DNA of 64,000 nucleotides. Origin: Microbacterium sp. Marseille-Q6648 (GTDB lineage: Bacteria > Actinomycetota > Actinomycetes > Actinomycetales > Microbacteriaceae). A program made the translations under genes and the position numbers. Each line of letters starts with the position of its first letter. Position 1 is the first letter of the stretch. Of the stretch, positions 16,897-63,866 are shown in pieces. The stretch covers positions 186,001-250,000 of the forward strand of contig NZ_CALPBZ010000002.1 of the NCBI RefSeq assembly GCF_943181415.1, given 5' to 3'. The notes beneath the pieces are model-generated. The model was given only the letters and a program-made list of their open reading frames with translations. It was not told the DNA's origin and made no database searches.

Positions 16897-16910
16897 GGAA
16901 AACGCATTCC
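16897..16910. promoter_or_regulatory. LacI-type operator (GGAAAACGCATTCC)
   Basis: Inverted repeat of the GGAAANCGNTTNCC family, 137 bases upstream of the RG-lyase start. One half-site base departs from symmetry, so it is weaker than the others. Confidence 0.5.
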
Positions 16911-16965
16911 CAGCGAACGCTCAGAAGTCTCGCATGGACGGGTCGGGATTGGCAAGGGCTTTCCC

Positions 16966-16976
16966 GAAACGTTTTC
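16966..16976. promoter_or_regulatory. LacI-type operator core (GAAACGTTTTC)
   Basis: Near-symmetric AAACGTTT core in the RG-lyase/LacI divergent region. The arms resemble the sites at 30536 and 30400. Confidence 0.6.
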
Positions 16977-17031
16977 CCCGCGGCGGCCGCCGGGTTGCGC
17001 AGGCGTGGACGCGTGGCCTAACCTCAGCCGC

Positions 17032-17041
17032 GAAACGTTTC
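17032..17041. promoter_or_regulatory. LacI-type operator core (GAAACGTTTC)
   Basis: Perfect 10-base palindrome with its centre about 66 bases from the 16966 site. Two sites this close to the regulator gene at 17209 suggest autoregulation. Confidence 0.6.
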
Positions 17042-17208
17042 TGTGTCCACGCCGGCGTGATTACGGACCTCGCCGGCAGGGGACGACCCGCGTCCGCGCG
17101 GGCGGCGGCCCGGGCCGCCGGCACCGGCCGTTCCGCGGTGCGCCGCGGGCGGCCACCGTACGATGAAGGCACCCGCAGCGGGTGAAGCGACGAAGCGAGG
17201 GCGAGGCG

Positions 17209-18222
17209 ATGAAGCGAGTCGGCATCCGTGACGTCGCCGAGCACGCGGGGGTCTCGATCAGCACCGTCTCGAACGCGCTCAACCGCCCCGGCACCGTCAG
17301 CGAGCAGCTCGTGACCCGCGTGCGGTCGGCTGCGGACCAGCTCGGCTACGTCCCGCTCCAGGCGGCGCAGCAGCTGCGGGCCGGGCGCAGCGGCCTCCTC
17401 GGCATGACCGTCATCAACATCGCAAACCCGTTCTTCGCCGAGATGGTCGCCGGCGCCGAAGACGCCGCCTCGGCTGCCGGCATGCGGGTGCTCGTCGGCA
17501 ACAGCAGCGACGACGCCGGCAAGGAGCGGGACCACCTCGAGCTGTTCGAGCGCGTGCAGGTCGAAGGCGCGCTGGTCAGCCCGTTCGGGCAGACCCGGCC
17601 GTGGCTGGACAGACTCCGCCGCCGCGGCATCCCCGTCGTCCTCGTCGACGCCGTCGACGACACCGGGCAATCGCCGTCGGTGTCGTTCGACGATGTCGCC
17701 GGCGGCCGGCTCGCCGCCGAGCATCTGCTGTCGACCGGACGTCGGCGCCTCGCGTTCGTCGGCGCCCGGGAAGAGGTGCGGCAGGTGCGGGAGCGGCTCG
17801 CCGGCGCCCGCGCGGCGGTCGCCGCCCATCCCGGCGCGACGATCGAGCCGATCTGGACCCGCCGGACCACGTCGGAGCTCGGCCGCGCCTTCGGCGAGCA
17901 GATCGCCGACCGCTCCCCCGGCGACCGACCCGACGGCATCGTGACCTCCAACGACCATCTCGCGATCGGCCTGCTGCACGGTCTGGTCACGCGCGGCGTG
18001 CGCGTGCCCGAGGACATCGCGGTCGTGGGATACGACGACATCGAGTTCGCAGCGATCGCCGCCGTCCCGCTCACCTCGGTCCGTCAGCCCGCGCGAGAGA
18101 TGGGCCGCACCGCGGCGGAGATGCTCCTGGCCCGCGTGAACGGCGACGACCACCAACAGCTCGGAAGCGTCGTCTACCAGCCCGAGCTCATCGTGCGCGC
18201 CTCGACCGGCGGGCACGCCTGA
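17209..18222 (+). CDS. LacI-family transcriptional regulator
   Basis: Regulator of 337 residues. The helix-turn-helix is VGIRDVAEHAGVSISTVSNA near the start. A hinge helix (LQAAQQLRAGRSGLLG) and a ligand domain ending in AVVGYDDIEFAAIAAVPLTS follow. The ATG at 17209 was preferred to a GTG at 17182, because the helix-turn-helix then begins at the usual position and a GAGGGCGAGG stretch lies upstream. It is divergent from the RG-lyase gene and abuts, stop to stop, the CE12 esterase gene. It is a prime candidate for binding the GGAAANCGNTTNCC operators spread over the window. The effector is probably an RG-I-derived oligosaccharide or unsaturated sugar (inference). Confidence 0.92.
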   Translation: MKRVGIRDVAEHAGVSISTVSNALNRPGTVSEQLVTRVRSAADQLGYVPLQAAQQLRAGRSGLLGMTVINIANPFFAEMVAGAEDAASAAGMRVLVGNSSDDAGKERDHLELFERVQVEGALVSPFGQTRPWLDRLRRRGIPVVLVDAVDDTGQSPSVSFDDVAGGRLAAEHLLSTGRRRLAFVGAREEVRQVRERLAGARAAVAAHPGATIEPIWTRRTTSELGRAFGEQIADRSPGDRPDGIVTSNDHLAIGLLHGLVTRGVRVPEDIAVVGYDDIEFAAIAAVPLTSVRQPAREMGRTAAEMLLARVNGDDHQQLGSVVYQPELIVRASTGGHA

Positions 18223-18906
18223 TCAGCTGACCAGCTGCGAGCCCTTCGCCGGGCGGTCGCCGTCGCGGCGTTCGATGGCCCGCAGCGAGCGGGCGACGAA
18301 CGCGGCGATGCGTCGCGCGCCCCGCTCATGGAAGTGGGTGTCGTCGGCGACGCCGTCGGGCCAGGCCGGGTGCTCACCGGGCGCGAAGTGCGTGAGCAGA
18401 TCCCGGGATGCCGCGGGTCCGAGATCCTCGTACAGCCACGTCGTGAATACGGTGAGATCGATGAGGGGCACGTCGAGCTCGTGCGCGAGGTCCCGCACCG
18501 CGTTGGGGTAGTCGCCATGAGTGGGCACGACCCGCTCCGGGTCGCCGTCGTGATCGAACCATCGCCGCTCGCACGACGTGCACAGCACCGGCAGGGCGCC
18601 GCGCTCGCGGACGTCCGCGACGAACCCGGCGAGCCGCTCGCGGTACCCGCCGCGCGCGTCGAGCGCAGGATCCTTCTGGTCGTTGTGGCCGAACTGGATG
18701 ACGACGGTGTCTCCGGCGACGACCTCGGACAGCAGTGACGGCCACGACCCCGCCTCGACGAACGACGCCGTCGTCGCCCCGCCGAAGGCGAGGTTGCGCA
18801 CCGGCGCGTCCACGTGATCCGCGAGGTACGAGCCCCAGCCGGTGAGCGGCAGCTCCGCCGGCTGGGGCGGTGCCACCGTCGAGTCGCCCGCCAGGTGATA
18901 GGTCAT
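18223..18906 (-). CDS. Intracellular rhamnogalacturonan acetylesterase, CE12/SGNH family
   Basis: Single-domain SGNH hydrolase, 227 residues, no signal peptide. It has the catalytic-serine block YHLAGDSTVA at the N-terminus, the block II glycine in NLAFGGATT, block III FGHNDQKD and the C-terminal ADDTHFHERG with catalytic Asp and His. This is the RhgT/YesT layout. It would remove acetyl groups left on imported RG-I oligosaccharides, complementing the secreted CE12 domain of the 10727 gene. The GGGAACGGGAAG region upstream of the ATG offers a modest ribosome site. The gene is divergent from the exporter gene at 18964, and an AAAGCGTTTACC operator lies about 70 bases upstream of its start. Confidence 0.9.
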   Translation of the reverse strand: MTYHLAGDSTVAPPQPAELPLTGWGSYLADHVDAPVRNLAFGGATTASFVEAGSWPSLLSEVVAGDTVVIQFGHNDQKDPALDARGGYRERLAGFVADVRERGALPVLCTSCERRWFDHDGDPERVVPTHGDYPNAVRDLAHELDVPLIDLTVFTTWLYEDLGPAASRDLLTHFAPGEHPAWPDGVADDTHFHERGARRIAAFVARSLRAIERRDGDRPAKGSQLVS

Positions 18907-18963
18907 CGTGGTCTTCCCGTTCCTTCTCGGGGGATGGCGCGGGGTGCGGCATCCCGTCGTAGC

Positions 18964-20748
18964 ATGTCAGCCATGCAGAAAGCGTTTACCGGCACGATAC
19001 GCGTGATCGAGGGCCCGCGTCCCGCACGCTCCGTGCTGCGCCTTCTCGCACGACGTCCCGGCCGCATGACGGTGGCGATCCTGGCGTTCGCGATGAAGGA
19101 GGTGCCGCTGTGGTTCCTGCCGGTCGTGACCGCCGAGATCATCGACATCGTCGCCACCGGCGGGTCGGTGACGACCGTGCTCATCTGGTTCGGGATCGCG
19201 GCGATCCTGCTGCTGCAGAACTACCCGAACCACATCGTCTACACGCGCAACTTCATGACGGTGGTGCGCGACACCGGCGCCGATCTGCGCAACGCCCTCG
19301 CGGCGCGCCTGCAGAGCCTGTCGATCGGGTACCACACGCGGGTGAGCGCCTCGATCGTGCAGACCAAGGTCGTCCGCGACGTCGAGAACATCGAGCTCAT
19401 GCTGCAGCAGGTGACCCACCCGCTGCTGTCGTCGATCATGGTGCTCATCGGCGCGATCGCGATGACGGCGATCGCCGTGCCGCAGTTCCTTCCGGTGTAC
19501 GCCCTCGCCGTGCCGATCGCGCTCGTGCTGCGCTGGGCGCTCAGCCGCCGGTCGCGGGCGCGCAACGAGACCTTCCGGCGCGAGGTCGAGGGGTTCGCCG
19601 CGCGAGTGGGCGAGATGGCCTCGCTGATCCCGGTCACCCGCGCCCACGGGCTCGAGAGCACCGCGGTCTCGCGTGTGGCCACCGGCGCCGACGGGGTGCG
19701 CCGCGCGGGTCTTCACCTCGACATGCTGAACGGGCACGTGGCCTCGATCTCGTGGGTCACGATGCAGCTGCTCGGCGTCACGTGCCTCATGCTCGCCGCC
19801 GTGTTCTCGCTCACCGGCATCCTTCCGATCACCCCCGGCGAGGTCGTGCTGCTGTCGACGTACTTCGCGCTGCTGACGCAGGGGCTGACGTCGCTGCTCA
19901 TGCTGATCCCGGTCGGCGCCCGCGGTCTGGAATCCATGCGCTCGATCTCTGAGGTGCTGCAGGAGCCCGACCTCGAGCAGAACGCCGGCAAGCGCGAGGT
20001 GGCCGCCGTGGGCGGTCATCTGCAGCTCGAGGCGGTCACGCACCGCTACGACGGCGCCGACCGCGACGCCGTCCGCGACGTCACCCTCGACATCCCGCCC
20101 GGCCGCACCGTCGCCTTCGTGGGGTCGTCCGGCTCGGGAAAGTCGACGATGCTCAATCTCGTGCTGGGGTTCGTGCGACCGACATCCGGCCGCATCCTGC
20201 TCGACGGCGACGACATGCAGGAACTCGACCTGCGCACCGTCCGTCGCTCCGTCTCGGTCGTGCCGCAGGAATCGGTGCTGTTCGAGGGGACGATCCGCGA
20301 GAACATCGCCTACGGCCTCGACGACCCCTCGGACGAGCGGCTGCGCGCCGCGCTCCAGGACGCCAACGCCCTGGAGTTCGTCGACAGCCTGCCCGACGGG
20401 TGGAACACCGTCGTGGGCGAGCGCGGAGCGCGACTGTCGGGCGGCCAGCGTCAGCGGCTGGCGATCGCCCGCGCTCTCGTGCGGGATCCCCGCATCCTGC
20501 TGCTGGACGAGGCGACGTCCGCCCTCGACCCGGAGTCCGAAGAGCTCGTGAAGGACGCCCTGACGCGGCTCATGCGCGGGCGCACGACGCTGGTGGTCGC
20601 CCACCGCCTGTCCACGATCCGCCAGGCCGACACGATCGTGGTGCTCGAGCACGGCTCGATCGTCGAGCAGGGCGGCCATGAGGAGCTTCTCGCCCGGCGC
20701 GGCCGCTACGCGCAGCTGCACGCGACGCAGGCGGGGCTGCCCCGGTAG
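18964..20748 (+). CDS. ABC transporter, exporter-type half-transporter (membrane domain fused to ATPase)
   Basis: Protein of 594 residues. A six-helix type-1 exporter membrane domain (about residues 30-330) is fused to a nucleotide-binding domain. Walker A is GSSGSGKST near residue 387, the signature is LSGGQRQR near residue 491 and Walker B is ILLLDEAT near residue 512, followed by the H-loop VVAHRLST. Exporters of this fold move lipids, peptides, drugs or glycans out of the cell. Its presence inside an RG-I locus is unexpected. The start is uncertain: ATG 18964 and ATG 18973 are both possible and neither has a strong ribosome site, suggesting a near-leaderless message. A LacI-type operator overlaps the first codons. 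Substrate unknown. Confidence 0.88.
   Translation: MSAMQKAFTGTIRVIEGPRPARSVLRLLARRPGRMTVAILAFAMKEVPLWFLPVVTAEIIDIVATGGSVTTVLIWFGIAAILLLQNYPNHIVYTRNFMTVVRDTGADLRNALAARLQSLSIGYHTRVSASIVQTKVVRDVENIELMLQQVTHPLLSSIMVLIGAIAMTAIAVPQFLPVYALAVPIALVLRWALSRRSRARNETFRREVEGFAARVGEMASLIPVTRAHGLESTAVSRVATGADGVRRAGLHLDMLNGHVASISWVTMQLLGVTCLMLAAVFSLTGILPITPGEVVLLSTYFALLTQGLTSLLMLIPVGARGLESMRSISEVLQEPDLEQNAGKREVAAVGGHLQLEAVTHRYDGADRDAVRDVTLDIPPGRTVAFVGSSGSGKSTMLNLVLGFVRPTSGRILLDGDDMQELDLRTVRRSVSVVPQESVLFEGTIRENIAYGLDDPSDERLRAALQDANALEFVDSLPDGWNTVVGERGARLSGGQRQRLAIARALVRDPRILLLDEATSALDPESEELVKDALTRLMRGRTTLVVAHRLSTIRQADTIVVLEHGSIVEQGGHEELLARRGRYAQLHATQAGLPR
18977..18990. promoter_or_regulatory. LacI-type operator (AGAAAGCGTTTACC) overlapping a gene start
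   Basis: Thirteen of 14 bases match the site at 56930 upstream of the oxidoreductase operon. It lies within the first codons of the exporter gene and about 70 bases upstream of the divergent CE12 gene. Codons alone could produce it, but the match is too long to dismiss. Confidence 0.6.
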
Positions 20749-20788
20749 ACGCGGGCGCTACACGCAGCACGGCACGAGCCCGCAGGCG

Positions 20789-20802
20789 GGATAGCGCTTT
20801 CC
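20789..20802. promoter_or_regulatory. LacI-type operator (GGATAGCGCTTTCC)
   Basis: Member of the GGAAAGCGCTTTCC family with one mismatch in the left arm, 62 bases upstream of the 20864 oxidoreductase. A short 7-base-stem hairpin (20801-20807 with 20816-20822) directly follows. Confidence 0.65.
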
Positions 20803-20863
20803 AGCCTGAGCCCGTAGGCTGGATGCCGGCACCCTCCGGCCGCCTCGAAGGAGACACGACCGC

Positions 20864-21949
20864 ATGATCCAGACCCTCCGCTGCGCCCTCGTCGGCACCG
20901 GGGCGGTGGCCAATCTGCATGCCCAGGCCGTCGCGGCCCATCCCCGCGCCGAACTCGTCGCCGTGACCGACATCTCGCCGGACGCCGCCCGCGACTTCGC
21001 CGCGCGCCACGGGATCGCCGCCGTGCACGACGACCTCGCGTCGCTGCTGGCCGCCGAGCGTCCCGACGTCGTGCTGATCTGCACACCCCCGGGGGTCCAC
21101 CGCGAGCAGACGGTGGCCGCCTTCGCCGCCGGCGCCCACGTCGTCGTTGAGAAACCCCCCGCACCGAGCCTGGACGAGCTCGACAAGATGCGCGCGGCCG
21201 CCGACGCCGCGGGGAAGCAGCTCGCCGTGGTGTTCCAGCAGCGCACCGGCACCGCCGCGGCGCACGTCAAGCGCCTCCTCGACTCGGGCGCGCTCGGCCG
21301 CCCGCTCCTGGCCCAGTGCCAGACCCTATGGTTCCGCGACGCCGGCTACTTCGCCGTGCCGTGGCGCGGGAAGTGGGAGACCGAGGGCGGCGGGACGACG
21401 CTCGGTCACGGCATCCACCAGCTCGACCTGCTCGCATTCCTGCTCGGAGACTGGGCGCGCGTCGAGGCGCGCCTGTGGCGCCTCGACCGCGAGACCGAGA
21501 CCGAGGACGCCTCGACCGCGACGGTCCTGTTCGAGCGGGGCGTGGTCGCCCAGGTGGTCGCCAGCGCGGTCTCGCCGCGTGAGACGAGCTCGCTCCGCAT
21601 CGACACGCAGCGGGCGACGGTGACCGTCGACCATCTGTACGGCCACGGCCACGAGAACTGGTCGCTCACCCCCGCGCCGGGGTTCGAGACCGACGCCGCG
21701 GCGTGGGCCTTCCCCGAGGCCGAGGAGCGCAGCGATCACGGCCCGCTCCTGCGCGACGTGTTCGACGCGATCCTGGACGAGCAGCCGCTGCCGCCCACGG
21801 CCGACGCCCCCGCCCGTTCGCTCGAACTCGTCGCGGCGATCTACGCCTCGGCGGACGCCGATGGACGCCCCGTCACCCCCGCCGACCTCGCGACCCACCC
21901 CACGCACCGGCGCGGCTTCGCCAGCCCGGTCACCGACCTTCGTCCCTGA
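20864..21949 (+). CDS. Gfo/Idh/MocA-family NAD(P)-dependent oxidoreductase
   Basis: Sugar dehydrogenase-type enzyme, 361 residues. The N-terminal Rossmann fold has LVGTGAVANLHAQAV at about residues 6-20. The family lysine sits in VVEKPPAPS (about residue 95). A C-terminal alpha/beta catalytic domain carries GHGIHQLDLL, which holds the usual catalytic histidine. AAGGAG lies 10 bases before the ATG. It is followed, after one base, by the frameshifted beta-propeller glycosidase gene. The family oxidises or isomerises sugars, sugar acids or glycosides. In this locus a galacturonate- or rhamnose-derived sugar is plausible but not proven. Confidence 0.88.
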   Translation: MIQTLRCALVGTGAVANLHAQAVAAHPRAELVAVTDISPDAARDFAARHGIAAVHDDLASLLAAERPDVVLICTPPGVHREQTVAAFAAGAHVVVEKPPAPSLDELDKMRAAADAAGKQLAVVFQQRTGTAAAHVKRLLDSGALGRPLLAQCQTLWFRDAGYFAVPWRGKWETEGGGTTLGHGIHQLDLLAFLLGDWARVEARLWRLDRETETEDASTATVLFERGVVAQVVASAVSPRETSSLRIDTQRATVTVDHLYGHGHENWSLTPAPGFETDAAAWAFPEAEERSDHGPLLRDVFDAILDEQPLPPTADAPARSLELVAAIYASADADGRPVTPADLATHPTHRRGFASPVTDLRP

Positions 21950-21950
21950 C

Positions 21951-22920
21951 GTGATCGATCCGAGCCCCATCGCTCCTGCCGGCCCCGCTCCGGGCGAGAT
22001 CTACCGCGACCCGATCTACGACGGCGCCACCGACCCGACGGTCGTCCACGACCCGGCGACCGGGTGGTGGATGTTCTACACCCAGCGCCGGGCCGATCAT
22101 CCCGATCCCGGCCCCGGTGTGGCGTGGGTTCACGGCAGCCGTGTCGGAGTGGCCCAGAGTCCAGACGGCCTGCGCTGGGACTATGCGGGCACCCTCGAGC
22201 CCGACGCCGCCGGTCTGCGTCTCGACCCCGACGGCCCGCCGGTCACCGTCGCCGAGACCCACTGGGCGCCGGAGGTCGTGCACGACGGCAGCCGCTGGCG
22301 GATGTACCTGACCGAGATCGACGGCATCCCCTGGCAGTGGGCCGGGCATCCGCGCCGCATCGTCGAGTACTCCTCCGGCGACCTCATGTCCTGGACGCGG
22401 GGGGCGCCACTGACGCTCGACAGCGACCGCGTCATCGACGCCGCCGTCACCCGCTGCCCCGACGGGCTGGCGGCTCTGGTACAAGGACGAGGCCGCCGGT
22501 TCGGTGATGAAGGTCGCGGCATCCGATGATCTGGGCTCGTGGCGCGGCGAAGGCACCGCGATAGCGGGCAGACCCCACGAGGGCCCGCACGTGTTCTCGC
22601 TCGGCGGGGTGTGGTGGATGCTCACCGACGAGTGGCGCGGCATGGCCGTGTACCGCTCGACGGACACCGTCTCGTGGGAGCGTCAGGGCGGGCCCGATGC
22701 GGTGATCCTCGGTGAGAGCGGCCCCGCCGCCGAGGGGGTGCAGGTCGGACGCCACGGCATGGCGGTCGTGCGGGCCGACGCCGCACTGCTGTACTACTTC
22801 ACCCACCCCTGGTGGGACGGCAGCGAGATCGAGGACGCCGATGCCGGCCTCGCCCGCCGCAGCGCCGTGCACGTGGCGAGGCTGCGCATCGTCGACGGCA
22901 CGCTCGTCTGCGACCGCTGA
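21951..22920 (+). pseudogene. Five-bladed beta-propeller glycosidase (GH43/GH117-like), frameshifted
   Basis: Two reading frames together encode one protein of about 320 residues. The N-terminal part has IYDGATDPTVVHDPATGWWM and AETHWAPEVVHDGSRWRMYL, typical of GH43-like propellers with an Asp/Glu catalytic set. The C-terminal part has RPHEGPHVFSLGGVWWML. The frame changes near 22466: in the second frame the sequence continues as WRLWYKDEAAGSVMKVAA, which completes the first. One extra base, or two missing, in GACGGGCTGG would explain it. It is either a recent mutation or a sequencing error; no other damage is seen. The GTG at 21951 starts one base after the oxidoreductase stop, so the pair forms an operon. 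It is likely intracellular, as no signal peptide is seen. Confidence 0.8.
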
Positions 22921-22931
22921 CCCCGCTCGGG

Positions 22932-28126: not shown

Positions 28127-28131
28127 GTCGA

Positions 28132-30399: not shown

Positions 30400-30413
30400 G
30401 GAATACGTTTTCC
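30400..30413. promoter_or_regulatory. LacI-type operator (GGAATACGTTTTCC)
   Basis: Member of the GGAAANCGNTTTCC family, 45 bases upstream of the DUF624 start. The arms GGAA and TTCC are intact and the core is slightly asymmetric. Confidence 0.65.
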
Positions 30414-30531: not shown

Positions 30532-30560
30532 TTGCGAAACGTTTTTTCACCCGGTACGGT
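30532..30560 (+). promoter_or_regulatory. Sigma-70-type promoter of the 30693 operon
   Basis: TTGCGA at 30532-30537 and TACGGT at 30555-30560 are separated by 17 bases. Operators overlap the -35/spacer (30536-30548) and the expected start of transcription (30565-30578), a standard repression geometry. Confidence 0.55.
30536..30548. promoter_or_regulatory. LacI-type operator (GAAACGTTTTTTC)
   Basis: AAACGTTT core overlapping the predicted -35 region of the 30693 operon; resembles the 16966 site. Confidence 0.6.
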
Positions 30561-30564: not shown

Positions 30565-30578
30565 GGCAAGCGCTTTCC
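30565..30578. promoter_or_regulatory. LacI-type operator (GGCAAGCGCTTTCC)
   Basis: Exact reverse complement of the 14-base site at 52720 before the second GH51 gene. It sits where transcription of the 30693 operon should begin. Confidence 0.75.
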
Positions 30579-46818: not shown

Positions 46819-46832
46819 GTACAACGTTGTAC
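46819..46832. promoter_or_regulatory. Operator palindrome GTACAACGTTGTAC
   Basis: Perfect 14-base inverted repeat upstream of the arabinan operon. Shares TACAACGTTGTA with sites before the secreted esterase gene (56760, 56826). Confidence 0.75.
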
Positions 46833-46845
46833 TTCAACGTTGTAC
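46832..46845. promoter_or_regulatory. Second TACAACG-type operator (CTTCAACGTTGTAC)
   Basis: Adjacent copy with an intact CAACGTTG core and right arm, with its centre 13 bases from the first. Tandem sites suggest cooperative binding. Confidence 0.65.
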
Positions 46846-51510: not shown

Positions 51511-51619
51511 CCCGACAGCATAGCGACGCGGCCCGGGACGCCGCCGCCCTCACCGCCGGGTCCGCCCGGCTAGAGTACAGAGATCGCGCGGGCCCGACCC
51601 GCCTCGAATGGAGGCATCG

Positions 51620-52720
51620 ATGAGTCCCACGATGCATGACGTCGCGCGGGCGGCAGGTGTGTCGATCAAGACGGTGTCGAACGTGGTCAACGAGTATCCG
51701 CACGTGCGCGATTCCACGCGCCAGCGGGTGCTGCAGGCGATCGAGGAGCTCGGCTACCGGCCGAACCTCTCAGCGCGCGGCCTGCGGTCGGGCCGCACCG
51801 GCGTCATCGGACTCGCCGTGCCGGCGCTCCGGGAGAACTACTTCGCCGAGCTCGCCGACGCCGTCATCCGCGCCGCCGAGCACCGCGGACTCACCGTGGT
51901 CATCGAGCAGACCAACGGCGACCGCGAGAAAGAGCTTCAATCCCTCACCGGCGGTCGTCTGCGATTGACGGACGGGATGCTGTTCAGCCCGGTCAGTCTC
52001 GGACCGAGCGACGTGGGCGCACTGGACGTCGGGTTCCCGCTCGTCCTGCTCGGAGAGCGCATCTTCGACGGCCCGACCGATCACGTGACGATGCACAACA
52101 CCTCGTCCGCGCGGGCCGCCGTCGCCCACCTTCTCGAACTCGGTCGCCGCCGCGTCGCCGTGATCGGCGCCGCGGAGCACCCGAGTGACGACCCCAGCTC
52201 GGCGAACCTCCGGGTGCGGGGCTATCGCCAGGCGCTCGACGATGCAGGAGTGGCGTTCGACCCGCAGCTGGTGCGCGCCGCCGACCACTGGCACCGTGAG
52301 ACCGGCGCGCAGGCCACCCGTCGCCTCATCGAGGAGGGCGTGGAGTTCGACGCGATCTTCGCCCTCAACGACACCCTCGGCCTCGGCGCGCTGCGCGCTC
52401 TCGGAGAGGCCGGGATCGGGGTCCCCGATGACGTCGCCGTCATCGGCTTCGACAACATCGACGAGTCGCGCTTCTCGGTGCCCTCGATGTCGAGCATCGA
52501 TCCCGGGCGCGAGGAGATCGCGGCCACCGCCGTCGACCTGCTCCTGGATCGCATGAACGAGAAGGGCGACCGTCAGCCGCCGCGCCGCGTCGTGCCCGAC
52601 TTCCGCCTCGTCGCGAGGGAATCCACCGGCGAGACCTCCCCCGCCGACCCTCCCTGCCCCCGCTGTCCTGAGCCGCCGCCGCCCCGCTGTTGCGTCGGCC
52701 ACGACGAGCGGTCAAGCTAG
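51620..52720 (+). CDS. LacI-family transcriptional regulator with Cys/Pro-rich tail
   Basis: Regulator of 366 residues. The helix-turn-helix is PTMHDVARAAGVSIKTVSNV, and the ligand domain ends in AVIGFDNIDESRFSVPSMSS. ATG 51620 has GGAGG 5 bases upstream and is preferred to ATG 51608. After the normal end of the family (FRLVARESTG) the frame continues for about 29 residues with CPRCPEPPPPRCCVG, which is unusual and probably unstructured. It lies just upstream of the second GH51 gene, and the 52720 operator begins at its last codon. It probably controls arabinofuranosidase expression and may share operators with the 17209 protein. Confidence 0.9.
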   Translation: MSPTMHDVARAAGVSIKTVSNVVNEYPHVRDSTRQRVLQAIEELGYRPNLSARGLRSGRTGVIGLAVPALRENYFAELADAVIRAAEHRGLTVVIEQTNGDREKELQSLTGGRLRLTDGMLFSPVSLGPSDVGALDVGFPLVLLGERIFDGPTDHVTMHNTSSARAAVAHLLELGRRRVAVIGAAEHPSDDPSSANLRVRGYRQALDDAGVAFDPQLVRAADHWHRETGAQATRRLIEEGVEFDAIFALNDTLGLGALRALGEAGIGVPDDVAVIGFDNIDESRFSVPSMSSIDPGREEIAATAVDLLLDRMNEKGDRQPPRRVVPDFRLVARESTGETSPADPPCPRCPEPPPPRCCVGHDERSS

Positions 52721-52733
52721 GAAAGCGCTTGCC
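52720..52733. promoter_or_regulatory. LacI-type operator (GGAAAGCGCTTGCC)
   Basis: Exact reverse complement of the 30565 site, in the 56-base gap between the LacI stop and the second GH51 gene. Confidence 0.75.
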
Positions 52734-52776
52734 GACTCCGCGCCGGCACCGATCCCCCTCCCCGATTAGGAGCATC

Positions 52777-54303: not shown

Positions 54304-54323
54304 CCCTGGGGTGCACCCACGAA

Positions 54324-54371
54324 CAGCCGGCGTGAGTGACCGGGGGTCTCCCGGGTCACCCACGCCGGCTG
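54324..54371. terminator. Bidirectional hairpin terminator
   Basis: A long imperfect hairpin between the convergent GH51 and esterase genes: outer arms of 11 bases, then inner arms of about 6 bases after single-base bulges, around a short loop. Serves both strands. Confidence 0.8.
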
Positions 54372-54389
54372 CGGCGTCAGGCTGGCGTG

Positions 54390-56639: not shown

Positions 56640-56759
56640 CGATTCCTCTCATGATCGATCGCGCACATCGTCATGCGCGACTCCAGCACCCGGCACCGAA
56701 CCTCGCGCTCGCCGCCGGACAGGTGATGAGATCCCGACATCTCGGTCGTGAGAACCATA

Positions 56760-56775
56760 TTTACAACGTCGTAAA
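56760..56775. promoter_or_regulatory. TACAACG-type operator (TTTACAACGTCGTAAA)
   Basis: A 16-base inverted repeat, symmetric except near the centre, 120 bases upstream of the esterase start. Matches the arabinan-operon site at 46819. Confidence 0.7.
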
Positions 56776-56825
56776 TCCCCTCGACGCCCATCGTTGCGCA
56801 CGATGCGCGAGCTGGTCAAGACTTT

Positions 56826-56841
56826 TTTACAACGTTGCACA
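56826..56841. promoter_or_regulatory. TACAACG-type operator (TTTACAACGTTGCACA)
   Basis: Second copy, its centre 66 bases from the first, with an intact ACAACGTTG core. Confidence 0.65.
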
Positions 56842-56929
56842 TCTCCGACCCCACGAGGGAACTCGAGCCCCCACTCCCGCGACGCCGCTACTCGTGGTTG
56901 CGGACCCGCATGTTGCATGGCACACTATT

Positions 56930-56943
56930 GGAAAGCGTTTACC
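56930..56943. promoter_or_regulatory. LacI-type operator (GGAAAGCGTTTACC)
   Basis: Upstream of the oxidoreductase/DUF993/TIM-barrel operon, 68 bases before its first ATG. Thirteen of 14 bases match the 18977 site. Confidence 0.75.
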
Positions 56944-57011
56944 CGCACCTGCGTGCGAAACAGCATCCGAGACCGCGACGTCCGGACGCATCCGACAGAG
57001 AGAAGGACCCC

Positions 57012-58223
57012 ATGACCGACACGACGCTCGCACCGGTCGAGGCCCCCACCACCGACTCCGCCGCCACTCCGACGGTGCGCGAGGTCGGCATCATCATGAA
57101 CGGCGTCTCGGGACGCATGGGCTACCGCCAGCACCTCGTGCGCTCGATCCTCGCGATCCGCGATCAGGGCGGGGTCGAACTGCCCGACGGGTCGAAGATC
57201 ACCGTGAAGCCGCTCCTGGTCGGCCGCAGCGAGGCCAAGCTCGCCGACCTCGCCGCCAACCACGGCATCGAGGACTACACGACCGACCTCGACGCCGCCC
57301 TCGCCGACCCGCGCTGGGAGATCTACGCCGACTTCCTCGTCACGAAGGCCCGCGCCAGCGCCCTGCGCAAGGCGATCGCGGCCGGCAAGACGATCTACAC
57401 CGAGAAGCCCACCGCCGAGACCGTCGACGAGGCGCTCGAGCTGGCCAAGCTCGCCGCCGACGCGGGCGTCAAGACCGGCGTCGTGCACGACAAGCTCTAC
57501 CTCCCGGGCCTGCAGAAGCTCAAGCGCCTCATCGACTCCGGCTTCTTCGGTCGCATTCTCTCGGTGCGCGGCGAGTTCGGCTACTGGGTGTTCGAAGGCG
57601 ATTGGCAGCCGGCGCAGCGTCCCAGCTGGAACTACCGCGCCGAGGACGGCGGCGGCATCATCGTCGACATGTTCCCGCACTGGAACTACGTGCTCGAGAA
57701 CCTGTTCGGCGAGGTCAAGTCGGTCTACGCGAAGGCCGCCGTGCACATCGCCGACCGCTGGGACGAGAACGGCGAGCACTACACGGCCACCGCCGAGGAC
57801 GCCGCCTACGGCATCTTCGAGCTCGAGGGCGACATCGTCGCTCAGATCAACTCCTCGTGGACCGTGCGCGTCAACCGCGACGAGCTCGTCGAGTTCCACG
57901 TCGACGGCACGCACGGCTCGGCCGTCGTGGGTCTGTTCGGCGCGAAGATCCAGCATCGCAACGCCACCCCCAAGCCGGTGTGGAACCCCGACCTCGCCGA
58001 CAGCCACGACTACGACGCCGACTGGGCCGAAGTTCCGACGAACGACGTGTTCCAGAACGGCTTCAAGCAGCAGTGGGAGGAGTTCCTCGTCTCGTTCGCC
58101 GAGGGCACCGACTACGAGTTCGACCTGCTCTCGGGCGCGCGCGGCGTGCTGCTGGCCGAGGCGGGCCTGCAGTCCAGCCGCGAGGGCCGCCGGGTCGAGC
58201 TGCCCGCGCTGAGCCTGGACTGA
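57012..58223 (+). CDS. Gfo/Idh/MocA-family oxidoreductase
   Basis: NAD(P)-dependent enzyme of 403 residues. The nucleotide-binding loop is GIIMNGVSGRMGYRQHL (about residue 26-42), an unusual long version of the family motif. The family lysine is in IYTEKPTAET, and GGGIIVDMFPHWNYVLENLF carries the likely catalytic histidine. GAGAAGGACCCC precedes ATG 57012. It is the first gene of a three-gene operon with DUF993 and TIM-barrel genes. Such sets look built to oxidise, cleave and isomerise an unusual sugar, but no pathway is known to me. The AAAGCGTTT operator in front ties it to the RG-I regulon. Confidence 0.87.
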   Translation: MTDTTLAPVEAPTTDSAATPTVREVGIIMNGVSGRMGYRQHLVRSILAIRDQGGVELPDGSKITVKPLLVGRSEAKLADLAANHGIEDYTTDLDAALADPRWEIYADFLVTKARASALRKAIAAGKTIYTEKPTAETVDEALELAKLAADAGVKTGVVHDKLYLPGLQKLKRLIDSGFFGRILSVRGEFGYWVFEGDWQPAQRPSWNYRAEDGGGIIVDMFPHWNYVLENLFGEVKSVYAKAAVHIADRWDENGEHYTATAEDAAYGIFELEGDIVAQINSSWTVRVNRDELVEFHVDGTHGSAVVGLFGAKIQHRNATPKPVWNPDLADSHDYDADWAEVPTNDVFQNGFKQQWEEFLVSFAEGTDYEFDLLSGARGVLLAEAGLQSSREGRRVELPALSLD

Positions 58224-58228
58224 CCCCC

Positions 58229-59446
58229 ATGAGCCACCTCACCCTGCTCGCCGGCGACGGCGCCCTCTCGCGGGTCGCCCTCGCCGAAGCCCCGGGATAC
58301 ACCCGGCCCGACGGCCCGCTGCGCAGCCGTGCCGCGTACGCCGCCGCGCACGTGGTGCCGAAGATCCACGCCGACAACACGCCGGGCCGGCCTGCGGACG
58401 TCGACTGGGACGCCACGCTCGACTTCCGCCGTGCAGTGTACGCGTGGGGTCTCGGCGTCGCCGACGCCATGGACACCGCCCAGCGGAACATGGGGCTGGA
58501 TGCCGCGGCCACACGCGAGCTGATCTCCCGCTCGGCCGAAGTGGCCCGCGAAGAGGGCGGCTCGGTCGTGGTGGGCGTGAACACCGACCATCTCGAGGCC
58601 GAGCACGTCTCGGTGGACGAGGTCATCGACGCCTACAAGCAGCAGCTGCACTTCACCGAGGAGCAGGGTGCCGGGCCGGTGCTCATGGCCTCGCGCCACC
58701 TCGCCCGCGCTGCGGAGTCCGCCGACGACTACCGGCGCGTGTACCGCGAAGTGCTGAAGTCGGCGACGACCCCCGTCGTCCTGCACTGGCTGGGCACCGC
58801 GTTCGACCCGATCCTCGAGGGCTATTTCGGTTCGCCCGATTGGCGCGAGGCGTCGGCGGTGCTGCTCGAGATCATCGGCGAGCACGCCGACAAGATCGCC
58901 GGCGTCAAGATGAGCCTGCTGGATGCCGCGTCCGAAGTGTCGGTGCGCGAGCGCCTCCCCGAGGGCGTGCGCATGTTCACCGGCGACGACTTCAACTACG
59001 TCGGTCTCATCGGCGGCGCCGACGTACCCGACGCGGCACAGCCCGAGCGGGACCCGGCGGCATCCCGGCAGCACTCCGACGCACTGCTGGGCGCCTTCGC
59101 GGCGATCACGCCCGTCGCCTCGGCGGCGATCCAGGCGCTGGACGCCGGCGACCCCGCCCGCTACCTCGAGATCCTCGGTCCGACCGAGGAGCTCAGCCGC
59201 CAGGTGTTCGCCGCCCCCACGTTCTACTACAAGACGGGCGTGGCCTTCCTGTCGTGGCTCAACGGCCACCAGAGCGCGTTCCAGATGGTGGGCGGCCTGC
59301 ACTCCGCCCGGAGTCTTCCCCACCTGTCGCGCATCGTGGAGCTCGCCAACGCGTCCGGCGCGCTGGAGCGTCCCGAGCTCGCCGCGGTGCGCTGGCACGG
59401 GATGCTGCGCGTGAACGGCATCGACGTGCCGGGAGTCATCTCGTGA
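58229..59446 (+). CDS. DUF993 family protein, dihydrodipicolinate-synthase-like aldolase
   Basis: Protein of 405 residues with a TIM-barrel class-I aldolase look. DKIAGVKMSLLDAASE (about residue 225-240) matches the strand that holds the Schiff-base lysine in the DapA superfamily. VVVGVNTDHLEAEHVS, VVLHWLGTAFDPILEGYF and MFTGDDFNYVGLIGG are other conserved stretches. ATG 58229 begins five bases after the oxidoreductase stop. Its stop overlaps the next gene by GTGA. Predicted to cleave or dehydrate a keto-sugar or keto-acid made by the oxidoreductase. Reaction unknown. Confidence 0.8.
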   Translation: MSHLTLLAGDGALSRVALAEAPGYTRPDGPLRSRAAYAAAHVVPKIHADNTPGRPADVDWDATLDFRRAVYAWGLGVADAMDTAQRNMGLDAAATRELISRSAEVAREEGGSVVVGVNTDHLEAEHVSVDEVIDAYKQQLHFTEEQGAGPVLMASRHLARAAESADDYRRVYREVLKSATTPVVLHWLGTAFDPILEGYFGSPDWREASAVLLEIIGEHADKIAGVKMSLLDAASEVSVRERLPEGVRMFTGDDFNYVGLIGGADVPDAAQPERDPAASRQHSDALLGAFAAITPVASAAIQALDAGDPARYLEILGPTEELSRQVFAAPTFYYKTGVAFLSWLNGHQSAFQMVGGLHSARSLPHLSRIVELANASGALERPELAAVRWHGMLRVNGIDVPGVIS

Positions 59447-60336
59447 CCGGGGTCGGCGGCACCGTCGATCCTCGCCTGTCGATCAACCAGGGGACCGTCA
59501 AGCACGCGAGCCTGGCCGAGGCGCTGAGAGCCACGGTGGACGCGGGGATCCCCGCGATCGGCCTGTGGCGCGAGCCCGTCCAGGAGGTCGGACTCGCCAC
59601 CGCCGCGAAGATGCTGGCCGACTCGGGGCTGCGCTTCTCGACGCACTGCCGTTCCGGCTTCTTCACGATGCCCGAGGGCCCCGAGCGTCGCGCCGCCATC
59701 GACGACAACCGCCTCGCGATCGAAGAGGCGGCCACCCTGGCCGCAGCGGCCGCCCCGGGCTCGCAGCCGGTGCTGGTGCTGGTCGCCGGCGCCCTTCCCG
59801 AGGGCTCGCGCGACCTCGCCGGCGCGCGGGAGCGCGTCCGCGACGCGATCGGCGAGCTGGCACCCGTCGCGCAAGCGGCGGGAGTCGAGCTGGCCATCGA
59901 GCCGCTGCATCCGATGTACGCCTCGGACCGCTGCGTCGTGTCCACTCTGGGGCAGGCGCTCGACATCGCCGCCGACTTCCCCTCGGGCGTCGTGGGTGTG
60001 ACCGTCGACACCTTCCACATCTGGTGGGACCCCGACGTGCTGCCCCAGATCGAGCGCGCCGGCCGCGAAGGCCGGATCGCGACGTATCAGGTGTGCGACT
60101 GGAAGACGCCGCTGCCGGCGGACGTGCTGCTCAGCCGCCACTATCCGGGCGACGGGGTGATCGACTTCGGCACGCTCACCCGCGCCGTGGAGGCCACGGG
60201 CTACGACCGCGACATCGAGGTCGAGATCTTCAACGCCGACATCTGGTCGCGCGGCGCCGACACCATCGTCCGCGAGACCGCCGAGGCCTTCGGCCGGGCC
60301 GTCAGCCCGCACCTGCGCACGCGCGTCGCCGGCTGA
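59443..60336 (+). CDS. Xylose-isomerase-like TIM-barrel sugar isomerase/epimerase
   Basis: TIM-barrel protein of 297 residues. Metal-binding candidates are Glu in VELAIEPLHPMYASDR, Asp and His in GVTVDTFHIWWDPDV, Asp in YQVCDWKTPLP and Glu in IEVEIFNADIW, the standard set of the AP-endonuclease-2/IolE-like family. GTG 59443 overlaps the DUF993 stop (GTGA). It completes the oxidoreductase/DUF993/TIM operon, ended by the hairpin at 60351. The fold allows isomerase, epimerase or dehydratase activity; none can be assigned. Confidence 0.82.
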   Translation: MTGVGGTVDPRLSINQGTVKHASLAEALRATVDAGIPAIGLWREPVQEVGLATAAKMLADSGLRFSTHCRSGFFTMPEGPERRAAIDDNRLAIEEAATLAAAAAPGSQPVLVLVAGALPEGSRDLAGARERVRDAIGELAPVAQAAGVELAIEPLHPMYASDRCVVSTLGQALDIAADFPSGVVGVTVDTFHIWWDPDVLPQIERAGREGRIATYQVCDWKTPLPADVLLSRHYPGDGVIDFGTLTRAVEATGYDRDIEVEIFNADIWSRGADTIVRETAEAFGRAVSPHLRTRVAG

Positions 60337-60350
60337 GCACACGCACCACC

Positions 60351-60398
60351 CGAACCCGCCTGCACGTTGCCCCTCCGGCCGGCGTGCAGGCGGGTTCG
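60351..60398. terminator. Bidirectional hairpin terminator
   Basis: Perfect 16-base stem (60351-60366 with 60383-60398) and 16-base loop between the convergent TIM-barrel and aldo/keto-reductase genes. Confidence 0.85.
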
Positions 60399-60402
60399 CT
60401 CG

Positions 60403-61440
60403 TCACAGCGACGAGCCGGCGGGCGGTGCGAACTCCTCGAGCGCCTCGAGCACCGCGTCCTCGAGCGGCACCCGGCTGGCCGCGATGGCGTCGTCGATCT
60501 GGCCGGGGCGCGAGGCTCCGATGATCGCCGTCGTCACCGCCGGATGCCGCAGCACCCACGCGACGGCGAGGCCCGCCACCGGCAGGCCGACCTCGTCGGC
60601 GATGCGCTTGATGCCGCGGATGCGGGTCAGGTAGTCCTCGGTGATGGCCGACCCGTCGAGGTACCAGCTGTCGGCGGCGCGGGACCCCTCGGGCACCTCA
60701 CCCCCGAGGTACTTGTCGGTGAGCAGCCCCTGCGCCAGCGGCGAGAACACCGCGCTGCCGATGCCGCGCTCCAGGAGGGTGTCGAACAGCGCACCCTCGG
60801 GCTCGCGCGCGAACAGCGAGTAGCGCGGCTGATGCAGCAGCAGCCGCACGTTCTGAGCGGCCAGGTAGTCGGCGGCCGCCGCGGTGAGGTCGGCGGGGTA
60901 GTTCGAGATGCCCGCATAGAGCGCCTTGCCGCTGCGGACGATGTCGACGAGAGCCTGCAGCGTCTCTTCGAGGGGCGTCTCGGTGTCGAGGCGGTGGGAG
61001 TAGAAGACGTCGACGTAGTCGGTGCCGAGCCGGGTGAGACTCTGCTCGAGCGAGCGGAAGAGGTACTTGCGCGAGCCGCCGTCGCCGTACGGACCCGGCC
61101 ACATGTCGTAGCCGGCCTTGGTCGCCACGAACAGCTCATCACGATAGGGCGCCAGGTCGCGGGCGAGAATCCCGCCGAAGGTCCGCTCGGCCTCGCCGTA
61201 CGGGGGTCCGTAGTTGTTGGCAAGGTCGAACTGGGTGATCCCGCGGTCGAACGCGTGCGTCACGATCTCGCGCTGGCGATCGGCGGAGCGGTTCCGTCCG
61301 AAGTTCTGCCAGAGCCCCAGCGAGATGGCCGGAAGGGGGATGCCGCTGCGCCCGGCGCGACGGTAGGACACATCGGAATAGCGGCCGGGCGCGGCCGTGT
61401 AGGCGGCGTCGAGACGGTGATCATCGGCGGCGATGGGCAT
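60403..61440 (-). CDS. Aldo/keto reductase, YghZ-like
   Basis: NADPH-dependent TIM-barrel reductase, 345 residues. The catalytic tetrad is visible: Asp and Tyr in FDLANNYGPPYGEAE, Lys in LFVATKAGYDMWPG and His in YVDVFYSHRLD. The cofactor loop IIGASRPGQIDDAI is near the C-terminus. GPPYGEAE and KAGYDMWPGPYG are typical of the YghZ/L-glyceraldehyde-3-phosphate reductase group. AAGGAGC precedes ATG 61440. It lies 60 bases after GH127 on the same strand and probably shares its transcript. It may reduce L-arabinose- or rhamnose-derived aldehydes; substrate not provable here. Confidence 0.9.
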   Translation of the reverse strand: MPIAADDHRLDAAYTAAPGRYSDVSYRRAGRSGIPLPAISLGLWQNFGRNRSADRQREIVTHAFDRGITQFDLANNYGPPYGEAERTFGGILARDLAPYRDELFVATKAGYDMWPGPYGDGGSRKYLFRSLEQSLTRLGTDYVDVFYSHRLDTETPLEETLQALVDIVRSGKALYAGISNYPADLTAAAADYLAAQNVRLLLHQPRYSLFAREPEGALFDTLLERGIGSAVFSPLAQGLLTDKYLGGEVPEGSRAADSWYLDGSAITEDYLTRIRGIKRIADEVGLPVAGLAVAWVLRHPAVTTAIIGASRPGQIDDAIAASRVPLEDAVLEALEEFAPPAGSSL

Positions 61441-61500
61441 GGTGCTCCTTGCGGGTGGGGACGGCGGGCGGTAAGGGCGGGTGGGAAGAGACGGAACGGT

Positions 61501-63837
61501 TCAGCGGTCGGCGACCGACGTGAGCAGCCGGACCCCGCGGAGGCGCGGAGTGCGCACCGCCCGGTCGTTTCTCGAACCGGCCGGTTCGATGATCATGCTC
61601 CACTCGAGGGCGCCGGGGGTCGCCGGCAGGTCGACCTCGCAGACGGTCTCGGTCGATCCGGGGGTCAGCGTGCGGTCGAGGACGACGGCGCCGCCGGCAT
61701 GCACCCGGAGGCCCCCCGGCTCCTCGGCGGGGAACCATTCCACACGGAGCCGGTCGGCCGTGCCGGTCCAGTCGCGCAGAGTGAACCGGATCGCCCCGGC
61801 GGTCCGCCGCCATCGCACGTCGCCCACGATGCCCGTGTCCTCGTCGTCGGCGACGAGCGCGTGATCGGACTCCGGCTGCTGCTGCCCGAAGACGACGGCG
61901 TCGCACGTGCGCGCCTCGAGGTCTAGGGCCTCGGCGTCGATGCCGGCCAGCTCGACGCGACGGGCGGCCGCGGTCGCGGCATCCGCGAGCGGGAAGGCGA
62001 CGGTGTACCGCGCGTCATGGATGCCGGCGAACGGCTCGAGGTCGATCGCGGCGCCCTCGAGAGCGGCGACGCGGACGCGGCCGTCGGCGAGCCGCTCGGC
62101 GGCGGCCACATCGGCGGGGTCGAGGATCGGCGCCTCTGCCAGGGGGCGCAGCGCCCCCAGCGCGATGTGGCCCATCCGCGCTCCGGTGCCGCGGTACGAG
62201 AGGGCATCGTCGGGAATGCGCTGCGCGAGCACCTCCGACCCGTCGACCACCCACCCCCACGCCGACCCGTCGGGCGCCGTCTCGACGCGCAGTCGTCGCG
62301 GCAGCTCGATCCGGTACGTCGTGCGCCCGGACCACGTGGTCCCGGCGGTCCATCGCGTCCCCGCGGCGACGTCGGCGACGACGCCCGGTGCGGTCTCGAT
62401 GCGCGCGTGTTCGACACCGTCGGGGATGAGGATGCTGACCGCCCGCGCGAGGGGTCGATCCGCCGTCACCGTCACCCGCCACGCGTCGACGCCTGCCGCG
62501 GCTTCCGCCGGATCGATCTCGACGAGCAGGTCCCGCGTGCGCACCGACGAGGGGACCAGCGCGTTGATGCGCAACTCGCCGGGTGCCGCGTCGGTGCCGG
62601 CCGACTCGGCGTACACGAGCGCACCGTGGCGGGCCTGCGCCTCGAAACCGGACCCCATGCAGCACCAGAACCCCTCGGCCTCGGGCGAGTACACGCGGTA
62701 GTGCCCGGGGCGCTGCGAGGTGAAGTAGACCAGGCCGCCGTGAACCGGATGCTGCGCCGAACGCAGGTGGTTCAGACGTGCCCGCTCCGCCCAGCGCAGA
62801 TACGCGTCGTCGCCGGTGAGGGCGTGGAGCTCGGCCGCGAGCTTGACCATGTTGTGGGTGTTGCAGGTCTCGGGCCCTTCGCGCGCCACGAACATCCTCG
62901 AGAAGTCCTCGGCGGCGTGGAAGTGCTCTGCGACGCTGTCACCGCCGAGGGGGATGCTGCGACGCCCGGCCACCGTGTCGAAGAAGGTCCGCGCAGCGGC
63001 ACCCTCGCGCGCAGCGACGTCGGCGACGGCATCCGGGTCGACCTCGCGGGCGGCGCGTTCGATCGTGGCGAGACCGACGGCGACGGGGATGAGCGTGTTG
63101 GCGTGCAGCCCGTCGAGCTCGTCCCTGCCCGCGGCGAGCGGCTCGACGAGCGCGGGGCGGGCGAAGCGGCGCGCGAGCGCCAGCGGAGCGGGGTCGCGGC
63201 GGAGGATCGCCAGGCGGGCGAACGCCTCGGTGAACCCGCCGAACTCCGAGTCCAGCAGCGTGCCGAAGACGCTGCCGTCGAGGGCGGCAGCGGTGCGCAG
63301 CCACCAGTCCCCGAGGTCGGCGAGCGCCGCGTCGGCGACGGGGTGTCCGACGAGCTCGGTCGCATCGAGGAGGCCCGCGAGGGTCTTGTGCAGGTTGTAC
63401 AGCGGCACCCACCGGCCGTTGAGAGAGAAGGCGCCGGCCTCGACTCTTCCGGAGAGCACCTCGTCCCAGAGGGCCACACCGTCGGGCACTCCTCCGACAT
63501 AGCCGGTGCCGATCGCCTGCTGCGCGTCGCGCATGCCCCCGACGAGGTGCTCGACGAGCGCCGCGATCGGCGCGTCGTCGCCGCCCGCGGCGAGGGTGGA
63601 CGCGGCCGAGAGCACGTGACCGGCGGTGTGGCCGTCGAGCCCGTCCGACTCCCAGCCGGGGTACGGCTCGGCCCGCGCGCTCAGTCCTGCCTCGCGGAGG
63701 TAGGGAGCCAGCAGCCGGTCGGGATCGAGGCGCAGCAGGGTCTCGCGCACCGTCCGCTGCGCCGCGAGGTCCGCTCCCTCCCTCAGCTGCACGGCGGCGG
63801 GAGGGAGGAATCGAACGAGCGTGCTCGTGGCGGGCAT
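61501..63837 (-). CDS. GH127 (DUF1680) beta-L-arabinofuranosidase
   Basis: Intracellular (alpha/alpha)6-barrel enzyme of 778 residues. The zinc-thiolate site of the HypBA1 class is complete: Glu323 and Cys325 in GPETCNTHNMVKLAAEL, and Cys392/Cys393 in GFWCCMGSG, one of which is the nucleophile. Glu304 in SVAEHFHAAED is the probable acid/base. RPGHYRVYS is another family signature. The C-terminal 350 residues form beta-sandwich domains. CAGGAGC precedes ATG 63837. GH127 and the related GH146 remove beta-L-arabinofuranose from pectic side chains or hydroxyproline arabinans. The operator at 63853 lies at its start, and a LacI gene diverges from it. Confidence 0.9.
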   Translation of the reverse strand: MPATSTLVRFLPPAAVQLREGADLAAQRTVRETLLRLDPDRLLAPYLREAGLSARAEPYPGWESDGLDGHTAGHVLSAASTLAAGGDDAPIAALVEHLVGGMRDAQQAIGTGYVGGVPDGVALWDEVLSGRVEAGAFSLNGRWVPLYNLHKTLAGLLDATELVGHPVADAALADLGDWWLRTAAALDGSVFGTLLDSEFGGFTEAFARLAILRRDPAPLALARRFARPALVEPLAAGRDELDGLHANTLIPVAVGLATIERAAREVDPDAVADVAAREGAAARTFFDTVAGRRSIPLGGDSVAEHFHAAEDFSRMFVAREGPETCNTHNMVKLAAELHALTGDDAYLRWAERARLNHLRSAQHPVHGGLVYFTSQRPGHYRVYSPEAEGFWCCMGSGFEAQARHGALVYAESAGTDAAPGELRINALVPSSVRTRDLLVEIDPAEAAAGVDAWRVTVTADRPLARAVSILIPDGVEHARIETAPGVVADVAAGTRWTAGTTWSGRTTYRIELPRRLRVETAPDGSAWGWVVDGSEVLAQRIPDDALSYRGTGARMGHIALGALRPLAEAPILDPADVAAAERLADGRVRVAALEGAAIDLEPFAGIHDARYTVAFPLADAATAAARRVELAGIDAEALDLEARTCDAVVFGQQQPESDHALVADDEDTGIVGDVRWRRTAGAIRFTLRDWTGTADRLRVEWFPAEEPGGLRVHAGGAVVLDRTLTPGSTETVCEVDLPATPGALEWSMIIEPAGSRNDRAVRTPRLRGVRLLTSVADR

Positions 63838-63852
63838 GATGCTCCTGGAGAC

Positions 63853-63866
63853 GGAAAACGCTTCCC
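63853..63866. promoter_or_regulatory. LacI-type operator (GGAAAACGCTTCCC)
   Basis: Member of the GGAAANCGNTTNCC family, 15 bases upstream of the GH127 start, where it would block initiation. Confidence 0.7.

Follow-up and report, generated by a model that had tools for sequence, protein, structure and literature searches.

The stretch of DNA considered here (the window) is 64,000 bp of the 3.49 Mb, eight-contig genome of Microbacterium sp. Marseille-Q6648 (G000:C2:186001-250000), and it carries a gene set for the use of rhamnogalacturonan I (RG-I). By Pfam this set includes a CE12-PL11 gene (10727-16759), an intracellular CE12 (18223-18906), an ABC exporter (19066-20748), two Gfo/Idh oxidoreductase genes (20864 and 57012), a PcRGLX-type lyase (22932-25577), two import operons named here after their solute-binding protein (SBP) genes (28132 and 30693), GH42, GH106 and GH127 genes, and two genes with a GH51 C-terminal domain. 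LacI-type genes lie at 3151, 7441, 17209, 39446, 51608 and 63909. An initial annotation had seen eleven 14-mer sites of a single operator family spread over 47 kb of this cluster, possibly shared by three of these LacI paralogues. Our analysis resolves the eleven into two classes, and we consider it probable that they mark an overlapping LacI regulon for RG-I use, in which class A sites are putative operators of LacI 63909 and class B sites putative operators of the RhaR-like LacI 17209.

Class A sites in the window and across species

The class A consensus is GGAAAGCGCTTTCC. A symmetric matrix trained on 105 sites exclusively from other genomes returned nine matches in the window, scoring 16.2-24.6, with the next best at 3.9 and nothing between. 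All nine are intergenic, in a window where intergenic DNA, as defined from our own gene list, makes up 3,738 of 64,000 bases (5.8%), and the expected excess of matrix hits over coding DNA is therefore borne out for this class. Both the promoter-region location and the general form of LacI operators, an even palindrome with central CG, are found in class A; classes B and C (below) have the same form, the exception being the class A-like site at 16951, with centre GG.

Eight of the eleven 14-mers (16897, 18977, 20789, 30400, 30565, 52720, 56930 and 63853) match at zero or one mismatch and stand as class A sites before transcription units. The remaining three (16966, 17032 and 30536) read GAAACGTTTT or GAAACGTTTC, with AAA directly next to the central CG, and belong to class B; a single family for all eleven is disfavoured by the A matrix itself, which gives two of these misfits 1.8 and 0.1 and leaves the third below the 26 best scores. 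Finer details of the initial annotation were accurate: the sequence at 30565 is the exact reverse complement of that at 52720, 18977 and 56930 agree at 13 of 14 bases, and all eight A sites are intergenic, 52720 sharing just the final base of the LacI gene ahead of it.

The units that the eight sites were said to precede are likewise confirmed. The CE12-PL11 promoter has a site at 16897..16910 (matrix score 21.3), and the adjoining PL11/17209 intergenic region also contains the class A-like GGCAAGGGCTTTCC at 16951..16964 (16.7), which had not been listed before. The intracellular CE12/ABC exporter pair has one between its two genes (18977..18990; 18.0), and each Gfo/Idh unit is preceded by one, at 20789..20802 (23.3) for gene 20864 and at 56930..56943 (24.6) for the operon in which gene 57012 is joined by a DUF993 gene and an isomerase-like gene. 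Of the two import operons, DUF624 / SBP 28132 has a site at 30400..30413 (16.2) and SBP 30693 one at 30565..30578 (22.9), over the likely start point of transcription. The last two lie before the second GH51 gene (52777), at 52720..52733 (22.7), and between GH127 and LacI 63909, at 63853..63866 (18.7).

By comparison of sequences, most of the eight class A places are conserved in other species. Around orthologues of LacI 17209 we compared 17 loci, the first 17 (L106-L122) of 80 returned, drawn from Microbacterium, Arenivirga, an Agromyces metagenome-assembled genome and others, with L110 coming from Microbacterium trichothecenolyticum DSM 8608, and class A recurs in register across them. The exporter site, AGAAAGCGTTTACC, is present as an exact copy in seven of the 17, and GGATAGCGCTTTCC stands before the Gfo/Idh gene or the gene preceding it in eight (in one of them reversed), while 10 of the 12 loci that extend to the SBP gene have exact GGCAAGCGCTTTCC before it. 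Orthologues of the SBP 28132 operon in L119, L219 and L229 are also preceded by A sites. When upstream regions in the fetched loci are counted at a score of at least 10, with a matrix for which these loci supplied part of the training sites, a class A site precedes 25/25 orthologues of Gfo/Idh 57012, 21/23 of the SBP, 14/20 of LacI 17209, 13/19 of the exporter and 12/16 of Gfo/Idh 20864. Among the comparison genes, the SBP operon's internal permease gave 0/22, and the rest of the genes that have 60 bp or more upstream gave 42/254, the latter including divergent neighbours that share a site.

That the 14-mers are chance palindromes of GC-rich DNA is hardly credible given these observations. The motif is short and degenerate, and across the genome a reversed-pattern control gives 8 matches on each strand where the 14-mer pattern gives 18 and 19. 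Set against this are the intergenic position of all nine matrix matches, their cross-species register, and 100 first-order Markov simulations of the window, of which two contained any A match of 16 or more (mean 0.02). Likewise, the window holds 26 matches to the originally described 14-mer at up to two mismatches, compared with 8.5 +/- 3.4 (largest 19) in 100 shuffles, palindromes being counted on both strands. At up to one mismatch the whole genome has 25 places, nine of which lie within the 1.8% of its length that the window represents; many of the matches outside may be background, because the reversed-pattern control gives its 8 per strand.

Candidate readers of classes A and C

We propose LacI 63909 (63909..64000, forward strand, continuing past the window; P0001) as the reader of class A on the basis of co-occurrence and proximity. 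The protein is matched by 18 NCBIfam models, 17 of them for LacI-type regulators and one for RbsB, with every score short of the curated cut-off, and these matches reveal a LacI helix-turn-helix (HTH; LATASRVLNG) and a sugar-binding domain. In its xAxxxR recognition pattern and the AAAGCGCTTT core of its proposed operator, 63909 resembles LacI regulators of the CcpA and GalR type. Unlike the operators of these, class A has outer bases GG..CC, and the NCBIfam equivalogs are far from their cut-offs (CcpA 117.2 of 442.35, GalR 126.2 of 557).

We surveyed class A in a same-genus set of 59 genomes (our own and 58 others) and a family set of 100 (our own and 99 others). Within the genus it occurs in 31 of 35 genomes with a 63909-type LacI and in 3 of 24 without one (31/4/3/21 for both, LacI only, site only and neither; p=3.6e-9, this and the other Fisher values overstating independence, as the genomes share ancestry, which itself counts against the assignment). 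The mean number of matches per genome is 2.54 with the LacI and 0.25 without, the reversed-pattern control giving 0.19. Two of the four genomes with the LacI only (G120 and G135) have a site just beyond the cut-off, before the Gfo/Idh 57012 - DUF993 operon, and the stretches fetched from the other two (G111 and G116) showed no operon of this kind. Among those with a site only, G122 is 83% complete, the G136 site precedes glycerate kinase, and G126 has three of its four matches at one spot with unrelated neighbours. Ten genomes have a single A match; in six it lies before the Gfo/Idh 57012 - DUF993 - isomerase-like operon and in two elsewhere. In many relatives this operon runs on into the 63909-type LacI and glycerate kinase genes. 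The family set gives a similar table (18/4/17/61, p=4e-7), and in 13 of 21 family genomes other than our own, from other genera, a class A site lies within 10 kb of the 63909-type LacI, in four of them within 100 bp.

Further observations weigh against this assignment. In the family set the reversed-pattern control matches 27 of 100 genomes, and single A matches are possibly background; for this reason the 17 of 78 family genomes with class A but no 63909-type LacI may also be background. An A-like site lies directly before the 63909-type LacI gene in the window and in G118, G127, G144 and G151, yet across foreign loci it does so in 5 of 16, because elsewhere the gene lies inside the operon or apart from it. 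The 52720 site has no counterpart in seven GH51 orthologues. Finally, class A precedes LacI 17209 itself in the 14 of 20 orthologues counted above (11/17 in the first locus set).

This last point is most relevant to the possibility that LacI 17209, as a mid-cluster regulator beside most of the sites, alone reads both A and B. All 12 genomes that carry 17209 (carriers being defined by E<=1e-120, set after viewing the list) have at least two A sites, giving a table of 12/0/22/25 within the genus (p=6e-4), and in L113 and L117 17209 is the sole likely target of the class A site, because the preceding gene points the same way. But 22 of the 47 genomes without 17209 have class A, among them 19 of the 23 that possess a 63909-type LacI, and in nine such genomes that were fetched A precedes the same RG-I genes; within 63909-bearing genomes 17209 adds nothing significant (p=0.28). 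In addition, A and B place their half-sites at different distances from the centre. We regard it as unlikely that 17209 reads both classes, and as sole reader of A it is disfavoured. Under the assignment of class A to 63909, the sites before 14/20 of the 17209 orthologues suggest that 63909 would also control 17209, in a cascade.

LacI 51608 (51608..52720, forward strand; HTH IKTVSNVVN) has the PF00356 HTH and a Peripla_BP sugar domain above the Pfam cut-off, and we propose it as reader of a third class, C (TACAACGTTGTA), from co-occurrence and recurrent footprints. At up to one mismatch, class C occurs in its own genome solely at 46820, 46833, 56762 and 56828: that is, at two promoters, both in the window, with two sites before the SBP 45382 operon (46820..46844) and two between the esterase 54390 and Gfo/Idh 57012 genes (56762..56839). 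Among 100 genomes class C and 51608 give a table of 23/4/6/67 (p=2.4e-13, with carriers defined by E<=1e-105, chosen after viewing the lists); with the initial cut-off of 1e-60, a hand count found exact class C in 26/52 carriers and 3/48 others.

This distribution bears on the suggestion that all three named LacI paralogues (17209, 51608 and 63909) bind one shared site and compete for it. Each of the three genes does adjoin class A sites in the window. Yet at 51608 orthologues the recurrent non-coding element is a CAACGTTG-centred palindrome, found at 20/29 foreign loci and mostly beside the LacI gene, while a class A match appears at 3/29, each time with two mismatches; 51608 is accordingly disfavoured as a class A reader. 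The confinement of class C to two promoters of the genome points the same way, and we consider a common site very improbable. Co-occurrence and footprints instead align A with 63909, B with 17209 and TACAACGTTGTA with 51608, and because 51608 goes with class C it probably does not compete for A. What the paralogues appear to share is promoters and not sites: A and B are both present in the PL11/17209 intergenic region and at the SBP 30693 importer promoter, and in the region 56639-57012 the C sites lie on the esterase side and the A site on the Gfo/Idh side.

Class B and the importer promoter

Class B (GAAACGTTTY; best form GCGAAACGTTTTT) is an imperfect palindrome narrower than A. Its three sites in the window, all on the forward strand, are at 16964..16977 (listed initially as 16966; A matrix 1.8, B matrix 9.7), at 17030..17043 before LacI 17209 (initially 17032; B matrix 11.1, with a match to the class B pattern) and at 30534..30547 (initially 30536), over the -35 of the SBP 30693 importer. 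At PL11 the A-to-B spacing is 67 bp, the same as in L233. At the importer, each of the 12 loci that reach the SBP gene has a class B site; A follows it at 31 bp in 11 loci and at 30 bp in one.

The proposed reader, LacI 17209 (17209..18222, forward strand; HTH ISTVSNALN), has the PF00356 HTH and a Peripla_BP sugar domain above the Pfam cut-off and falls short of the NCBIfam RbsR equivalog (238.5 of 382). The first ten named loci closest to it are 82-87% identical and all from Microbacterium. With up to one mismatch, GCGAAACGTTTTT occurs in 11/12 carriers of 17209 and 6/47 other genomes (11/1/6/41, p=4.7e-7); as an exact match it occurs in 8/12 and 0/47.

The principal alternative is that these sites are operators of RhaR, the rhamnose repressor. 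LacI 17209 is 50% identical to a LacI elsewhere in its own genome (C2:339866) that we call RhaR-like by inference, and loci of RhaR-like relatives, whose HTH is VGTVSNVLN, contain 23 TTGAAWCGTTTCAA-like matches in 28 loci at up to three mismatches, compared with 0-3 when the letters of the half-sites are reordered. These RhaR-type sites have the same core as class B, and a RhaR-like protein is encoded in 38 of the 59 genomes; every one of the 12 carriers of 17209 is among them, as are all five non-carriers whose importer promoter has a TTTCAA half. On the other side, exact GCGAAACGTTTTT is confined to carriers of 17209, and class B precedes 17209 itself in the window, L120 and L233. We think it doubtful, on balance, that RhaR is the reader of class B.

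In carriers of 17209 the two operators differ in the right half, the core being common. At the importer, the right half of the B site is TTTT in 21/21 carrier promoters, chosen for their 30-31 bp distance to A, and in 15/15 once the six fetched by the B pattern itself are set aside. Of nine non-carrier importer promoters, five have TTTCAA, a RhaR-type half-site, at this position and three a CGATTC-type sequence, while one promoter failed to align. Most simply, 17209 would have taken over a site of RhaR type, the left half of which would have been held by the -35. That the site passed from RhaR to its paralogue 17209 by change in the non-overlapping half-site, within a two-repressor gate of fixed 31-bp spacing, is a fuller scenario that we advance tentatively. 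The cluster would then offer a natural example of an operator that apparently passed from one repressor to a paralogous one, with one of its halves pinned by a promoter element.

Three points count against the assignment of B to 17209 and the promoter model that follows. The left half of B overlaps the -35, and its conservation is possibly in part conservation of the promoter; RhaR is present in every carrier of 17209; and a consensus scan of two key intergenic regions called no sigma-70 promoter. Because the scan called nothing, the likely promoter of the SBP 30693 operon (TTGCGA-17-TACGGT, 30532..30560, forward strand) is drawn from cross-species alignment.

The most likely arrangement at this promoter is one of two LacI repressors answering to different sugar signals. 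LacI 63909 would regulate the gene or operon that encodes it (in relatives the order is often Gfo/Idh - DUF993 - isomerase-like - LacI - glycerate kinase). Its control would have spread to the genes for the RG-I lyase, importer, exporter, CE12, second GH51 and GH127. At the SBP 30693 operon, where B lies on the -35 and A on the probable start of transcription, binding of just one repressor should be enough to prevent transcription, and full induction would for that reason need release of both. As effectors we infer an intermediate of the operon's own pathway for 63909 and an RG-I disaccharide or rhamnose-type sugar for 17209.

Known systems and further candidate members

Palindromic LacI operators with central CG, autoregulation and overlapping LacI regulons are already known; new is this case of RG-I use in Microbacterium, for which the eleven-site pattern becomes three testable repressor-operator pairs for pectin use in the genus. 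In the literature searched, no paper treats the control of Microbacterium pectin genes by LacI regulators, and neither DUF993 nor the 14-mer GGAAAGCGCTTTCC is mentioned. In passages on LacI-family regulators, operators are even palindromes with central CG, over 75% of sites lie 140-30 bp before the start codon, and 72% of the transcription factors are autoregulated (PMC4052901); the present sites do not differ in principle, and the present motif-regulator pairs are absent from those passages. Arabino-oligosaccharide use in Bifidobacterium is described, in the relevant part of PMC5928203, as governed by the overlapping LacI regulons AbfR, AauR and AraQ, with genes controlled by different transcription factors in different genomes or co-regulated by two. 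The likeness lies in several LacI regulators acting on neighbouring glycoside genes; substrates and regulator groups differ, and here there is a fixed B - 31 bp - A pair at RG-I genes. The Actinomycetales RhaR, in the portion of PMC3870299 that treats it, is a LacI-type regulator of genes for rhamnose and rhamnose-oligosaccharides. LacI 17209 is similarly LacI-type and related to the RhaR-like protein of its own genome, but is a separate paralogue with its own HTH (ISTVSNALN, compared with VGTVSNVLN and a TTGAAWCGTTTCAA-type site in RhaR-like relatives).

Outside the window, 179 kb was fetched, selected for pattern matches and so no basis for a density. The best A matrix score there (C2:259932, 23.5) lies between glycerate kinase and ThuA-galE. 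Others are at an orphan SBP (C1:822773, 20.7), a second PL11 lyase (C1:190544, 17.4), a third PL11 (C5:224168, 16.1, and C5:224111, 14.8), an uncharacterised gene, which the site precedes (C7:37006, 16.3), and a GH78 rhamnosidase and SBP operon (C2:343736, 14.4), with lower scores at C6:62609 and C5:271284 (13.7 each) and C3:300183 (12.5). The orphan SBP, two further PL11 lyases, glycerate kinase and galE are thus unlinked candidate members of the regulon. The SBP (L024:6449-7681, contig C1) has no recognised permease gene beside it and may feed the permeases of the window; the two extra PL11-type lyases (L027:1930-4473 and L025:4563-6908) each have A-like sites upstream.

A fourth operator type, AGGAAACGTTTTCT or like, lies before a Gfo/Idh gene beside another LacI just outside the window (L021:4006), and recurs in L216, L218, L224 and L270-L274, with a LacI HTH of LSTVSRALN or LSTVSRVMN. 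The LacI just beyond 63909 (L021:2959-4029) has its own site type, which resembles A.

Within the window, the DUF993 protein (58229-59446) shares an operon with Gfo/Idh and the isomerase-like protein, joined in relatives by the LacI and glycerate kinase, and so belongs to a conserved set; neither the literature search nor NCBIfam profiles yielded a described function for the DUF993 - Gfo/Idh - isomerase-like genes. The ABC exporter (19066-20748), which has a class A site and is recurrent in RG-I import clusters, has MsbA as its best NCBIfam model, below cut-off. Finally, 3' of Gfo/Idh 20864 lies a gene (21946-22920) that we label GH43-like ourselves, Pfam giving no family for its pieces. It is split over two frames relative to an intact 322-residue relative, tblastn aligning the pieces to residues 5-175 and 173-322, and it looks frameshifted.

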